From assembly GCA_025350905.1 (NCBI GenBank), contig JANXWY010000369.1, positions 1 through 39,221 on the forward strand: a stretch of 39,221 bases of DNA. Reading direction: 5' to 3'. Below the pieces are notes generated by a model that did not search any database, had not been told where the DNA came from, and saw nothing but the letters and a program-made list of their open reading frames with translations. This document shows, one piece after another, positions 16,588 to 21,600 of this stretch. The position numbers and the translations under genes were made by a program. Every line of letters begins with the position of its first letter. Position 1 is the stretch's first letter. This DNA is from Verrucomicrobiota bacterium. Lineage in GTDB: Bacteria; Verrucomicrobiota; Verrucomicrobiia; Limisphaerales; JADLHS01.

Positions 16588-17541
16588 ATGATCAAAGTTG
16601 ACAATTTGACGAAACTCTTCGGCGCCAAACGCGCCGTGGACGGCATTTCCTTTACCGTCGAACGGGGCGAGGTGTTGGGGTTTCTCGGCCCGAACGGTGC
16701 GGGCAAATCCACCACCATGCGCGTCATCACCGGTTTTATCCCGCCCACCAGCGGGTGCGTGAGCGTCGGCGGTTTTGACATGGTGGAGAAACCGATCGCC
16801 GGCAAGCGCCTCATCGGCTACCTGCCGGAAAACGCGCCCGCCTACACCGACATGACCGTGAGCGGCTTTCTGGGGTTTGCCGCGGAGATTCGCGGGTTGC
16901 GCGGCGAGGCAAAACGGAAAGCCGTCACCCGCGCCGTCGAAATGTGCTTTCTGCAATCCGTGCTGCATCAAAGCGTCGAAACGCTTTCCAAAGGCTACCG
17001 CCACCGGACCTGTTTCGCGCAATCCATCATCCACGATCCCGAAGTGCTCGTCCTCGACGAACCGACCGACGGGCTCGACCCGAACCAGAAGCATGAAATT
17101 CGCAGTTTGATTCGACGGATGGGTGAGAAGAAAGCAATCATTTTCTCGACCCATATCCTCGAGGAAGTGGACGCCGTTTGCTCGCGCGCCATTATCATTG
17201 ATCGCGGCCGGATCGTCGCGAACGGCACCCCGCAGGAGCTGCGGCAGCGATCGGACTGGGCGGGCGCGGTGACCTTGCGGGTCAGCGGCCTGACGGCGGA
17301 GGCCGTGAAAGAAAAGCTGAGCCAGTTGCGCACCGCCAAGAAGGTCCAGGCGGAAACTCACGGGACGCGAATTACGGCGACGGTCTTCCCCCGGACCCCG
17401 GGCGACCAGGATTTGACTCGCGAGGTGCTGGAAGCGACCCGCAGTTGGCAGGTCGAGGAACTGCATACGGAAGCCGGCCGACTGGACGAAGTGTTTCGCA
17501 GCATCACCCTGCCGGACACCGCGAAGGGGGAAGCGCAATGA
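16588..17541 (+). CDS. ABC transporter ATP-binding protein, GldA-like
   Basis: This 317-residue ATPase is the motor subunit of a Gld-type ABC transporter. It has Walker A GPNGAGKST (residues 34-42), the signature LSKGYRHR typical of the GldA/ABC-2 group, Walker B VLVLDEPTDGLDP, and a late switch histidine in IIFSTHILEE. A C-terminal extension of about 90 residues follows the ATPase core. The open frame begins at 16348, but MIKVDNLTKLFG at 16588 matches the normal family start; no ribosome binding site is evident. Its stop overlaps an ATG (ATGA at 17538-17541) that opens a short ORF leading to the permease gene. Gld names come from Flavobacterium gliding, but homologues are widespread in non-gliding bacteria, so no motility claim is made. 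Confidence 0.93.
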   Translation: MIKVDNLTKLFGAKRAVDGISFTVERGEVLGFLGPNGAGKSTTMRVITGFIPPTSGCVSVGGFDMVEKPIAGKRLIGYLPENAPAYTDMTVSGFLGFAAEIRGLRGEAKRKAVTRAVEMCFLQSVLHQSVETLSKGYRHRTCFAQSIIHDPEVLVLDEPTDGLDPNQKHEIRSLIRRMGEKKAIIFSTHILEEVDAVCSRAIIIDRGRIVANGTPQELRQRSDWAGAVTLRVSGLTAEAVKEKLSQLRTAKKVQAETHGTRITATVFPRTPGDQDLTREVLEATRSWQVEELHTEAGRLDEVFRSITLPDTAKGEAQ

Positions 17542-17738
17542 TTACTTCAACCGTGAAAAATTTAATCGAAGCTCACCCTCACCCTAACCCTCTCCCCCAG
17601 GGAGAGGGAACAGCCACGCACGGCTCCCGAATTTCCAACGACGCCCGCCTCGCCCGTAACCTGACGAAAATTCTCCCTCTCCTGGGGGAGAGGGCCGGGG
17701 TGAGGGCGGATATGAACACAAATTTCGCTTTCGCATGA
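17538..17738 (+). CDS. 66-codon ORF bridging ATPase and permease genes, mostly repeat-derived
   Basis: The ORF starts at an ATG overlapping the ATPase stop (ATGA, 17538-17541) and ends at a TGA overlapping the permease start (ATGA, 17735-17738). Most of it is the translated inverted repeat, giving HPHPNPLPQGEG, a string often seen in spurious predictions from this repeat type. It may never make a useful protein, but it would let ribosomes pass from the ATPase to the permease without leaving the mRNA. Removing exactly the 131-bp repeat would place this ATG in frame with the permease Met at 17735. It may therefore mark the original permease start. Confidence 0.25.
   Translation: MITSTVKNLIEAHPHPNPLPQGEGTATHGSRISNDARLARNLTKILPLLGERAGVRADMNTNFAFA
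17576..17706. repeat. 131-bp inverted-repeat, MITE/REP-like element inside the ABC operon
   Basis: The left arm begins CCCTCACCCTAACCCTCTCC and the right arm, read on the opposite strand, begins CCCTCACCCCGGCCCTCTCC; the arms match imperfectly over about 36 bases. Each arm also holds a small internal palindrome of CCCTCTCCC-GGGAGAGGG type. No transposase is encoded and no clear target duplication is visible. Such CCCTCACCC/CCCTCTCCC repeats are dispersed in many bacterial genomes. It lies between the ATPase and permease genes and could fold into a long hairpin in the operon mRNA. Confidence 0.85.
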
Positions 17739-18481
17739 ACACTTGGGCCAACATCAAAACCATCGCGAAGCGCGAACTCGGCGCGTATTTCTCCTCGCCA
17801 CTGGCATTTGTCTTCATTGTCATTTTTCTGCTGCTGTGCGGATTTTTCACGTTCATGGTCGGCGGATTTTTTGAGCGGGGCGAGGCCTCGCTGACCCGGT
17901 CTTTCTTTGACTGGCATCCCTGGTTCTATCTGTTCCTCGTGCCCGCGGTGGGGATGCGCTTGTGGGCCGAAGAACGGCGGGTGGGAACGCTGGAACTGTT
18001 GCTGACCATGCCCATCACCACCTGGCAGGCGATCGTGGGGAAGTTTCTGGCGTCCTGGCTGTTTCTCGGGTTGGCGCTGGTGCTCACCTTCCCCATCGTC
18101 ATGACCGTGAATTACCTCGGCAGTCCGGACAATGGCGTCATCCTTTCCGGGTACATCGGCAGCTGGCTCATGGCGGGGGCGTATCTTGCCGTCAGTTGCA
18201 TCACTTCCGCCATGACCCGCACCCAGGTGGTGAGTTTCATTGTGTCGGTGGTGGTTTGCCTGTTCCTGATCCTCGCGGGGTTCCCACCGGTGGTCCGTTT
18301 TCTGGAAGGCTGGGCCAGCCCCTGGCTGGTGGATGTGGTCACTTCATTCAGCGTCATCACGCATTTCGAAGGTTTTCAAAAAGGCGTGCTGGATTCGCGG
18401 GATGTGGTGTTTTTCCTCTCGCTCATTGGCTTTTCGCTATTCTCGACCAGTGTGATTCTGCGCGGGCATCGCGCGGGCTAA
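17735..18481 (+). CDS. ABC-2 type permease, GldF-like
   Basis: This 248-residue integral membrane protein has six likely helices at about 22-44, 61-78, 100-126, 138-159, 164-182 and 222-242. The loop RLWAEERRVGTLELLLTMPI after helix 2 is the conserved ABC-2 permease segment that contacts the ATPase. It should form the membrane channel with the GldA-like ATPase and work with the GldG-like protein 12 bases downstream. The start ATG overlaps the stop of the repeat-derived ORF; no Shine-Dalgarno is visible, so translation may depend on coupling. The transported substrate is unknown. Confidence 0.92.
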   Translation: MNTWANIKTIAKRELGAYFSSPLAFVFIVIFLLLCGFFTFMVGGFFERGEASLTRSFFDWHPWFYLFLVPAVGMRLWAEERRVGTLELLLTMPITTWQAIVGKFLASWLFLGLALVLTFPIVMTVNYLGSPDNGVILSGYIGSWLMAGAYLAVSCITSAMTRTQVVSFIVSVVVCLFLILAGFPPVVRFLEGWASPWLVDVVTSFSVITHFEGFQKGVLDSRDVVFFLSLIGFSLFSTSVILRGHRAG

Positions 18482-18493
18482 AAAGAAATTGCG

Positions 18494-20413
18494 ATGCAAA
18501 AAAAATCTCTCGAAACCTTTCTCTACTCCATCGGCGGAGTCGTCGCGATGGCACTGATTCTCATCGCCGTGAACGTCATCTTGGGCGGCATGCGCCAACG
18601 CGCCGACTTGACCAAAGAAAAGGCGTACACCCTGTCGGACGGCACACGCGCGATCCTCGCCCGGTTGGACACGCCGGTGAAAATCCGGTTTTATTGCTCG
18701 CAAAGCGCCAGCGCCTCGCCGGAAACCGTGTTCCTCAAGGGCTACGCCCGGAAGGTCGAAGATTTGCTCACCGAATACAAGCAGGCCGGCAAAGGTAAGA
18801 TTCTCCTCGAGAAGTATGACCCGCAGCCCGACTCGGACGCCGAAGATTCGGCCCGGCTCGACGGGGTGCAAGGCCTGCCGTTGCAAAGCGGCGACAAGTT
18901 TTACCTCGGCCTGGCGGTCAGCCAACTCGATGCGAAGGAGGCCATTCCCTTCCTCCAGCCCACGCGCGAACGATTGCTGGAATACGATTTGTCCCGCGCC
19001 ATCACGCGGGTCCAGGCCACGGACAAACCCGTGGTGGGCGTCATGAGCTCCCTGCCCGTGTTTGGAATGCCGTCGAACCCGATGATGATGCAGATGGGCC
19101 AGCGCGGGCAGCCCGCGTGGGCGCTGATCACGGAGTTGCAAAATGACTTCTCGGTCAAGCGCGTGGACATGAACACCGACAAGATTGACGCTGAGATCAA
19201 GGTTTTGATTGTGATTCATCCCAAGGACATCACCGAGGCGACGCAGTTTGCGATTGATCAATTCGTCTTGCGCGGCGGCAAGCTGGTGGCGTTTCTGGAT
19301 GCCAATTCCCTGATGGAAAGTCGCGGCCAGCAAAATCCGATGATGAGCCAGATGGGCGGCGGCGGTTCGACGCTCGACAAATTGCTCAAGGCCTGGGGCA
19401 TCAATTTTGAAAACACCAAAGTGGTGGCGGATATGAATTTTCGCATGGAAGTCGGCGGCGGCAATGGGCAACCGACGCAACGCCCCACCTGGCTGTCGAT
19501 CACGCCGGAGGGCATCGACACCAACGATGTCGTCACCAGTCAGATTGACAACATTTGGTATTTTGCCGGCGGCGCTTTCTCCGGCACGCCGGCCGCCGGG
19601 CTTAAAGAAACGGTGCTGCTGCGCAGCACCACCGATTCGCAACTGGTGGATGGCATGATGGCCAACCTCTCGCCCGAAAGTGCGCTCAAGGGCTTTAAAT
19701 CGTCCGGCACGGAGTACGCCCTCGCCATCCGCTTGTCGGGCAAATTCAAGACCGCCTTTCCGGATGGCAAACCCGCGGATAAGAAACCCGACGCCAAGAA
19801 GCCCGAGGACGCCAAGCCCGAGGCCACGAAGCCAGACGATGCGCTTAAGGAAGGCAAAACGGATTCCACCGTCATTCTGGTCGGGGATGCGGACATGATT
19901 CACGACAGTTTCTCGGTGCAAGATACCCAAACGCCCTTTGGCAACATGCGTCGGCCGTTGAATGGCAATCTCAATTTTGCCCAGAACACCGTTGAGCAAT
20001 TAGCGGGCGACAATAACCTGATCGGGGTCCGGAGTCGCGCGACCATGAACCGGCCGTTCACGCGGGTGAAGAAGATGGAGGCGCAAGCGGATGCCCGCTT
20101 CCGCGGCAAAGTGCAGGAGCTGGAAGCCAGCCTCGCCGAAACCCAGCAGCGCTTGAATGAATTGCAGTCGAACAAGGACAAGAATCAGCGCTTCATCCTC
20201 TCCCCGGAACAACAGGCCGAACTGGAAAAGTTCCGCAAAAAGGAATCAGAGGCGCGGGCGGTGTTGAAAAAGACGCAGAAGGATTTACGGCGCGAAGTGG
20301 ATCAACTCGAGACCCGGGTAAAATGGTGGAACATCTTCGCCATGCCCCTGGCCGTGACGGTCTGTGGCATCCTGCTGGCGGTCTATAAACGCAAACTCAC
20401 GGCGGCCAAATGA
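18494..20413 (+). CDS. GldG-like ABC auxiliary membrane protein
   Basis: This 639-residue protein has an N-terminal transmembrane helix (about 10-32) followed by the typical segment RADLTKEKAYTLSDGT, a large extracytoplasmic domain of the ABC_transp_aux (GldG) family, and a C-terminal helix at about 612-632. Between these are a Lys/Pro/Asp/Glu-rich linker at about 420-458 and a long coiled coil at about 530-605. Met/Gly/Gln-rich loops (MMMQMGQRGQ; MMSQMGGGG) interrupt the core domain. It begins 12 bases after the permease, and its last four bases overlap the start of the DUF4340 gene (ATGA). With these partners it probably forms one transporter complex; its biochemical role is not established. 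Confidence 0.92.
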   Translation: MQKKSLETFLYSIGGVVAMALILIAVNVILGGMRQRADLTKEKAYTLSDGTRAILARLDTPVKIRFYCSQSASASPETVFLKGYARKVEDLLTEYKQAGKGKILLEKYDPQPDSDAEDSARLDGVQGLPLQSGDKFYLGLAVSQLDAKEAIPFLQPTRERLLEYDLSRAITRVQATDKPVVGVMSSLPVFGMPSNPMMMQMGQRGQPAWALITELQNDFSVKRVDMNTDKIDAEIKVLIVIHPKDITEATQFAIDQFVLRGGKLVAFLDANSLMESRGQQNPMMSQMGGGGSTLDKLLKAWGINFENTKVVADMNFRMEVGGGNGQPTQRPTWLSITPEGIDTNDVVTSQIDNIWYFAGGAFSGTPAAGLKETVLLRSTTDSQLVDGMMANLSPESALKGFKSSGTEYALAIRLSGKFKTAFPDGKPADKKPDAKKPEDAKPEATKPDDALKEGKTDSTVILVGDADMIHDSFSVQDTQTPFGNMRRPLNGNLNFAQNTVEQLAGDNNLIGVRSRATMNRPFTRVKKMEAQADARFRGKVQELEASLAETQQRLNELQSNKDKNQRFILSPEQQAELEKFRKKESEARAVLKKTQKDLRREVDQLETRVKWWNIFAMPLAVTVCGILLAVYKRKLTAAK

Positions 20414-21600
20414 ATCGGAAACAATTTTTTATCCTGCTGGCATTGGGCCTCCTCTTCGGGGCGTGGGGCTTGAATCGACTGCGGCAGCAAAGCTCCTCGT
20501 GGACCGGCGGCGGCGCGGCCATCGGCCAAAAGTTACTGCCCGCATTCGAGGTCAACGACGTGGCGCAGATTGCGATCCAGCACGGCACGAACGAATTGAC
20601 CCTCGCCAAGCAGAACGATCTTTGGCGCGTGGTTCAGCGCGGCAATTATCCCGCGAACTTCACCGAAATCAGTGGCCTGCTACTCAAGCTGAAAGACCTG
20701 AAAGTCGTCCAGACCGAAATCGTGGGCCCCTCGCAATTGCCGCGACTCGAACTCGCCCCGAGCGGCACGAATTTGCCGACGCGCGTGGAGTTCCGCGATG
20801 CGACCGGCAAGGCGATCAAGACCTTGGTGCTCGGCAAGAAGCATCTCCAGAGCGGGGGCCAACGGTCGCCCATGGAGGAGGGAGGGGGCGACGGCGGCTT
20901 TCCCGATGGCCGCTATGTGATGACGGGCGGCGCTTCCGATCGCGTCGCGTTAATTTCGGATCCACTGGCGAACTTGGAACCCAGTTCGTCACCCTGGCTC
21001 AACAAGGATTTTTTCAAAGTGGAAAAAGCGCGGACGATTGCGGTGACTTTTCCCGCGGCCACGAATTCGTGGAAACTCGTGCGAGACACGGAAGGGGGGC
21101 CTTTGAAATTTGCCGAGCCCCAGGGCGGCGAAGAACTCGACGCGAGTAAAGCCAGTGGCGTCGGCAACCCATTTTCCTCCCCGAGTTTTGAAGACATCGT
21201 GGTGGGCGCGCCGCTCGAAGCGACCGGGCTCAATAACCCCACCATCGTAGCCATCGAGACTTTCGACGGCTTCAACTACACGATCAAGGTCGGGGCCAAG
21301 ACGAATGAGAATTACACCCTCACCCTGACCGTAGCCGCAGCCTTGCCCAAGGAACGGACGGCAGGGAAAGAGGAAAAGCCGGAGGACAAGACCAAGCTCG
21401 ACAAGGAATTTGCCGACCAGCAGAAAAAGCTCGAGGAAAAACTGGCGGCGGAAAAGGTATTTGAACCGTGGACCTATTTGGTCTCGGGGTGGACGGTGGA
21501 TTCGGTGTTGAAGGAACGGGCCCAATTGCTGGTGGAGAAAAAGGAAGCCGCCAAGCCGGAAGCCAAACCTGACGACGCTCCCCCGATCGAGGCTAAGTAA
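20410..21600 (+). CDS. DUF4340 protein, Gld-type transporter partner
   Basis: This 396-residue protein has an N-terminal membrane anchor (about residues 5-21), then a beta-rich extracytoplasmic region with DUF4340 features: IAIQHGTNELTLAKQNDLWRV, repeated later by a second related unit with VEKARTIAVTFPAATNSWKLVRD. The C-terminal third contains a charged Lys/Glu-rich coiled coil and a short tail rich in Lys, Ala and Pro. Its ATG overlaps the GldG-like stop by four bases, showing translational coupling. DUF4340 genes typically end Gld-type ABC operons outside Bacteroidetes. Molecular function is unknown. Confidence 0.88.
   Translation: MNRKQFFILLALGLLFGAWGLNRLRQQSSSWTGGGAAIGQKLLPAFEVNDVAQIAIQHGTNELTLAKQNDLWRVVQRGNYPANFTEISGLLLKLKDLKVVQTEIVGPSQLPRLELAPSGTNLPTRVEFRDATGKAIKTLVLGKKHLQSGGQRSPMEEGGGDGGFPDGRYVMTGGASDRVALISDPLANLEPSSSPWLNKDFFKVEKARTIAVTFPAATNSWKLVRDTEGGPLKFAEPQGGEELDASKASGVGNPFSSPSFEDIVVGAPLEATGLNNPTIVAIETFDGFNYTIKVGAKTNENYTLTLTVAAALPKERTAGKEEKPEDKTKLDKEFADQQKKLEEKLAAEKVFEPWTYLVSGWTVDSVLKERAQLLVEKKEAAKPEAKPDDAPPIEAK

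Follow-up and report, generated by a model that had tools for sequence, protein, structure and literature searches.

A dispersed palindromic repeat spanned by a bridging open reading frame between the ATPase and permease genes of an ABC transporter operon in Verrucomicrobiota

REPINs have a centre of variable sequence between two inverted repeats and show length clustering. Their mobilisation is ascribed to RAYT (PMC3116915). Palindromic repeats of another kind, the GTAG/CGTC REPs, include the intragenic REPs of Opitutus terrae, a member of the Verrucomicrobia (PMC3733652), and the Rickettsia palindromic elements (RPEs) are described as palindromes of about 150 bp that occur in frame inside unrelated protein genes (PMC10969869). 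The mycobacterial MIRUs (Supply et al. 1997) are mobile repeats that insert at start codons and carry an ORF coupled at -4 nt (PMC12548453). As to coupling itself, reporter work in E. coli and Haloferax indicated that reinitiation needs an overlap or a very short gap, distances of about 20-38 nt nearly abolishing it (PMC10666635). In the literature searched, mostly outside subscription journals, palindromic repeats that bridge coupled genes were not found described for Verrucomicrobiota, and the available part of PMC4255298 contains nothing on repeat-bridged coupled genes.

The window, i.e. the whole stretch of 39,221 nucleotides of a Verrucomicrobiota genome (G000) that was analysed, contains an operon in which genes for an ABC transporter ATPase and an ABC-2 permease are followed by a GldG-like gene and a DUF4340 gene (Table 1). 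The permease remains under strong constraint, as its comparison with the G004 orthologue indicates (dN/dS 0.016). A preliminary description had placed a 131-bp inverted repeat between the ATPase and permease genes, as well as a 66-codon ORF running from the ATPase stop to the permease start through an ATGA at either end; both are indeed present. This bridge ORF is stop-free over positions 17538-17735 and closes with TGA at 17736-17738, giving a gap of -4 at both ends, and its peptide had no match in a Pfam search. Two inverted pairs were distinguished in the repeat, namely arms of 26 nt that are 88% complementary (17576-17601/17681-17706) and a second pair at 17595-17609/17674-17688, and the arm motif, for which 0.01 occurrences would be expected in the window, is present there twice. 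Conservation beyond the arms was judged on 64 element ends, ungapped, and AAATTT occurs at 17558-17563 and 17720-17725, near the edges of the probable full element. The RNA here folds better than shuffles (z -4.76), and no Rfam family reached its gathering score within the window.

Table 1. Features of the ABC transporter locus in the window, and copies of the repeat in frame inside genes at other loci of G000
Feature	Position	Strand	Basis and remarks
ABC transporter ATPase (upstream gene)	16588..17541	+	PF00005, E 1.4e-25; stop TGA 17539-17541
SD-like GAAGGGGG	17523..17530	+	sequence; now 5' of the bridge ORF; counterpart in insert-free relatives precedes the permease start
ATGA junction 1, overlap of ATPase stop and bridge-ORF start	17538..17541	+	sequence, relatives; ancestral permease-start position
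Bridge ORF through the repeat, 66 codons + stop	17538..17738	+	ORF calling; no Pfam match
Probable full element	17557..17725		weak conservation about 19-20 nt past the arms; outer boundaries inferred
Two-armed palindromic repeat, 131 bp from arm to arm	17576..17706		inverted-repeat detection
Left arm, can itself form a hairpin, CCCTCTCC..GGAGAGGG	17576..17609		sequence
Right arm, can itself form a hairpin	17674..17706		sequence
ATGA junction 2, overlap of bridge-ORF stop and permease start	17735..17738	+	sequence
ABC-2 permease	17735..18481	+	Pfam; start conserved among relatives; dN/dS 0.016 vs G004
ABC_transp_aux (GldG-like) gene, same operon	18494..20413	+	PF09822, E 5.2e-57
DUF4340 gene, 4-nt overlap with preceding gene	20410..21600	+	PF14238, E 1.7e-13
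Repeat in frame in NuoF-like gene	L005:1400-1549		Pfam; ORF also with NuoE-type domain
Repeat in frame in hybrid histidine kinase	L006:1501-1631		Pfam
Repeat in frame in PurL-like gene	L019:1505-1632		Pfam
Repeat in frame in ValRS-like gene	L027:1504-1648		Pfam; class I tRNA synthetase, ValRS by eye
Repeat in frame in FtsX/MacB permease	L413:1541-1691		Pfam; MacB match below curated cut-off
Repeat in frame in UvrA-like gene	L418:1078-1216		Pfam

The window element belongs to a dispersed family. It has 108 matches in its own genome, and a related repeat copy has matches in all 12 family genomes, its own included. At least 34 distinct two-armed copies were recovered from the loci fetched in G000. 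Both arms of the repeat family are hairpin-capable, and the element lengths cluster at 149-151 (10/34 copies) and 188-193 (13/34), while the centres are on average barely more alike than shuffles (0.63 versus 0.59), one pair reaching 0.92. The family thus shares with REPINs the two inverted repeats around a length-clustered centre, and with MITEs the terminal inverted repeats. The other trait of REPIN/RAYT systems, a RAYT gene with copies of the repeat beside it, was not recovered, as none of 16 Y1_Tnp loci of this assembly (about 95% complete) carries an arm of the present repeat in the up to 1.5 kb examined on either side. Inverted repeats around Y1_Tnp genes were looked at in five (L085-L089) of the 16 loci examined, and in L085 and L087-L089 the Y1_Tnp gene is flanked on either side by inverted repeats of its own, different from the present ones, as RAYT genes are. 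Compared with the GTAG/CGTC REPs, the elements are likewise palindromic, frequently paired, found at transcribed positions and present inside genes, including uvrA, which corresponds here to the UvrA-like gene of L418 (PMC3733652). They differ in that no GTAG or CGTC tag was established in the repeat; the string CCCTCACCC is absent from the main text of PMC3733652, and the available part of that source does not mention junction bridge ORFs for these REPs. Target-site duplications were sought by comparing the flanks in L012 and L018 with relatives, which gave no clean empty site, and the edges of the PurL and ValRS element sites are blurred when set against element-free relatives.

Several copies lie inside protein-coding genes. 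When a copy was required to have Pfam domains before and after it, or a domain spanning it, six copies in G000 qualified as intragenic (Table 1); L013 and L024, with Pfam domains only after the element, were not counted, and at least 100 open codons flank the element on both sides in 8 of the 34 copies. Orthologous element-free sites were found for PurL in G004 and on contig C120 of G001, and for ValRS in G007. All readable stretches (PurL, nine; ValRS, seven distinct) keep the frame, several of them with other inserts; in the ValRS comparison, no stretch could be read in L402, while L398 and L406 represent one gene. As copies stand in frame inside PurL-, ValRS-, UvrA- and NuoF-like genes, the repeat elements are probably translated, which suggests that ribosomes pass through the repeat, provided that the host genes work as their intact frames suggest. 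Such in-frame copies in six unrelated protein genes recall the RPEs, with which the elements were compared by description only. The RPEs are described as coding for a conserved peptide, whereas frame and centre vary here, and the available part of the source does not mention junction bridging for RPEs (PMC10969869). Indeed, the copies are read in different frames, yielding peptides of the RPHPGPLP, LTPALSP and SPSPRPSP types, and their openness is at the level of composition. Elements that are stop-poor by design were considered and rejected, since 55 of 144 frames are open in 24 copies, against 57.7 after shuffling; the centres alone have 86 open frames against 82.6 in shuffles. The G001 bin contains two PurL genes (L384 on contig C118 and L394 on C120), and the one with the repeat is 97% identical to that of the window's genome, so that it possibly represents contamination or a paralogue.

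Most copies lie between genes, and the bridge ORF of the window was examined at these other junctions as well. Among the 34 copies in G000, 24 are situated between codirectional called genes, seven within a called gene, two between convergent genes and one at an edge. A replication set, with a plan fixed beforehand, comprised 20 regions of G011, G001 and G010 chosen for listed repeat matches and provided 31 copies (19 codirectional, seven within a gene, one convergent, three divergent and one at an edge). The codirectional setting is in itself unremarkable, because 187 of the 240 adjacent called gene pairs in the replication regions are codirectional anyway. Gene starts were taken from a simple codon-score caller trained on the window genes. 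A junction was tested if the upstream stop lay at most 150 nt and the called downstream start at most 350 nt from the element, and it was counted as bridged if an ORF through the element ended at a gap of -8 to +6 from the next start, a range that follows PMC10666635 as far as that source was available. These distance limits excluded 11 of the 24 codirectional copies in G000, among them L417 and both L012 copies, although these look bridged by eye, and eight of the 19 in the replication set. Six cases (L002, L417, L419, L012, L025 and L416) had been seen by eye before the procedure existed, and because the thresholds were set with knowledge of cases in G000, only the replication counts as a clean test. 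In G000, seven of 13 junctions were bridged, the window included, where dinucleotide shuffles give an expectation of 0.87 (p = 2e-6), and six of 12 without the window (p = 1.5e-5). The replication gave five of 11, with 0.77 expected (p = 2.5e-4). In a frame-slide control, which keeps the real element sequence and slides the frame on either side, the expectations were 2.33 for G000 (p = 0.001; p = 0.005 for the six of 12 without the window) and 1.22 for the replication (p = 0.0014). Both sets combined without the window amount to 11 of 23 bridged junctions, compared with 1.46 expected from shuffling (p = 7e-9) and 3.41 from sliding (p = 1.5e-5). At the window junction alone, a shuffled or frame-slid spacer would bridge with a probability of 0.07-0.12, so its bridge is not striking by itself and becomes so once the other repeat copies are added.

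The bridged junctions vary in how the bridge ORF begins. Relative to the end of the upstream stop, it starts at -4 in L001, L002 and L419, and the other four of the seven G000 bridges start off the upstream stop (L025, ATG at +3; L416, GTG at +3; L014, TTG at +4; L013, TTG at +42). The five replication bridges comprise 74-81 codons, all start at -4, and end at -1, -1, -4, -4 and +5, the last one before a TTG. If an ATG or GTG on the upstream stop is required, the counts are three of 13 in G000 and five of 11 in the replication. In addition, upstream stops beside the repeat read ATGA or GTGA in 22 of 30 cases, compared with 124 of 325 called genes (Fisher p = 5e-5). In the window, the left flank shows no clear resemblance to the downstream start (p = 0.43), and four of the 12 bridged junctions gave uncorrected p values of 0.02-0.04. 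At L012:783-1685 (minus strand), an ORF of 301 codons, running through two copies, connects an FBP aldolase gene, from a GTGA, to KduI with a 3-nt gap; about 930 nt are missing there in G004.

Relatives of the window's genome disclose what preceded the insert. Orthologous permeases with 68-98% identity occur in nine family relatives (G003 and G008 gave distant permease matches only), the G004 permease being 98% identical to that of the window. Six of these nine (G004, G002, G005, G001, G011 and G010) have no insert; their ATPase stop and permease start overlap by 4 nt at the residue aligned to the present Met, or one codon earlier in G010 and G011, and an SD-like AGGAG(G) lies ahead of the permease start. 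The remaining three have spacers of 91 nt (G009) and 45 nt (G006 and G007). The alignments indicate that 197 bp, and not the 131 bp of the repeat alone, were added at the ancestral overlap, and that no 22-residue extension was lost. In the preliminary description, the permease was thought to have begun formerly at 17538 with 22 more residues, the 131-bp repeat having shifted its start. The arithmetic behind this history works, as 66 nt in frame, i.e. 22 residues, separate the two ATGs once the 131 nt of 17576-17706 are left out, and N-terminally extended ATGA permeases do exist in other families of the order. An ancestral in-frame extension was nevertheless rejected, since all six insert-free family relatives overlap directly, either at the present Met or one codon upstream of that residue, which is the outcome that the preliminary description itself had named as contradicting its proposal, and such a history is hardly credible. 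Its idea of a repeat insertion with possible coupling through the repeat stands, in contrast to an excision that restores the old state and to a moved permease start. Extended permeases, which it had suggested looking for, are absent from the window's family. They came from a survey of 276 ABC-junction loci, of which 228 were classified after removal of 45 duplicates and of three loci without an ATPase match (L242, L252 and L356). At 137 of the 228 junctions the two genes overlap (-4 or -1) close to the present Met, 19 have an overlap with an extended N-terminus, 16 a spacer that leaves a start codon on the ATPase stop, and 55 a spacer without such a start; L278, a script miscall that is really an extended overlap, was removed from the spacer count to give the 16 and brings the extended overlaps to 20. 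Ten permeases are clearly extended in frame from the ATPase stop, nine in family f19 (L130, L135, L145, L147, L149, L159, L164, L168 and L171) and one in f44 (L143).

The 193-nt spacer of the window, if untranslated, would be expected to uncouple the permease, because coupling is nearly lost over gaps of about 20-38 nt in the reporter work as far as available (PMC10666635). The reading that we favour as probable, from comparative sequence evidence, is that a REP/MITE-like repeat was retained, or inserted, at a site where a bridge ORF free of stops preserves termination-reinitiation. A dispersed palindromic repeat of this type would have entered a tightly coupled junction at which ATPase stop and permease start overlapped in an NTGA. 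The ATPase gene kept this NTGA together with the ancestral SD-like site, and the permease start now lies 197 nt further on, again in an ATGA. As the insert is open from the first ATGA and closes in the second, a path for reinitiating ribosomes is possible. Ribosomes finishing the ATPase could start anew at 17538, read the 66 codons across the hairpin, terminate at 17736-17738 and begin the permease by a second reinitiation, so that a stop-free bridge with an ATGA at both ends would restore the -4 spacing twice. Translation may accordingly pass through the bridge, and the excess of bridges may reflect selection for coupled junctions or insertion into them. Alternatively, the bridge ORF may be a coincidence in a GC-rich repeat with few stops, the permease being translated from the shared mRNA by independent SD-less initiation. 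Any ORF that arrives in that frame at an ATGA start is closed by it, the single-junction probability of bridging is 0.07-0.12, the element copies are as open as their own shuffles, and 12 of the 24 tested junction copies fail to rejoin. We regard this coincidence as rather unlikely in view of the excess over both shuffles and frame slides, which was replicated, and of the position of the ancestral SD-like site, which now precedes the bridge ORF, a crude check finding no such site before the permease start at 17735.

Still less probable is that the ORF is kept for transcription, a translated spacer shielding the mRNA from Rho-dependent polarity and holding the hairpin open. The strong predicted hairpin would fit, as would those five of the 24 junction copies, all among the 12 that do not rejoin, that run in frame into the next gene, where the spacer would likewise be translated. 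Polarity alone, however, would not require the ORF to end within -8 to +6 nt of the next start, which is the feature in excess and is seen at 12 of the 24 junctions with the window included, and the in-frame runs are not in excess in the replication (two of 11, 1.21 expected). Returning to termination-reinitiation through a stop-free bridge, a wider form of it may be advanced tentatively, at somewhat less than even confidence: a mobile palindromic repeat would, family-wide, be directed to NTGA junctions or survive there, form translated bridges in many operons as an independent palindromic counterpart of MIRUs, and lengthen essential enzymes in frame.

The likeness to MIRUs concerns architecture, the window having been set against them by description and not by sequence. 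As in MIRUs, a repeat at a gene junction has an ORF that meets the adjacent gene at -4 nt and may be coupled to it, and MIRU insertion is described as affecting expression little in the available part of the source (PMC12548453). In contrast to MIRUs, the element here is palindromic, with hairpin arms, a variable centre and several reading frames, occurs also in frame inside genes, and belongs to Verrucomicrobiota; moreover, the copies use different frames, whereas a MIRU carries one ORF of its own. The best reading may be that the window element works like a mycobacterial MIRU but is a REP/MITE-like palindrome. This suggests how a long hairpin-forming insert could sit in a coupled operon without cutting it, namely by becoming a relay ORF, and it allows a test of whether operon coupling restricts the places in which mobile repeats can live. 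Natural bridge ORFs for measuring termination-reinitiation are available between GntR and an ABC ATPase, Band_7 and a P-type ATPase, AMP-binding and Lnt, an HAD-type gene (probably KdpB) and KdpC, and others.

Other spacers at the ATPase/permease junction gave a weak excess of bridging. Among the 16 spacers that have a start codon on the ATPase stop, eight lead exactly to the start of the permease, with 3.3 expected (p = 0.007). Without the window, this holds for seven of 15 (p = 0.023) and, for spacers of at least 20 nt, for five of 12 (p = 0.056); the later, pre-noted data alone gave two of five (p = 0.31). The most telling case among these spacers is the G009 junction (L034:2245-2335), where a different palindromic repeat, with 75 matches in the G009 genome and none in the window's genome, is spanned by an ATGA-to-ATGA bridge of 32 codons. 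The gene-proximal spacer ends of G009 and the window look similar, with ATGATTA on the left and TTTC..TTTCG before ATGAAC on the right, although closer relatives have no spacer.
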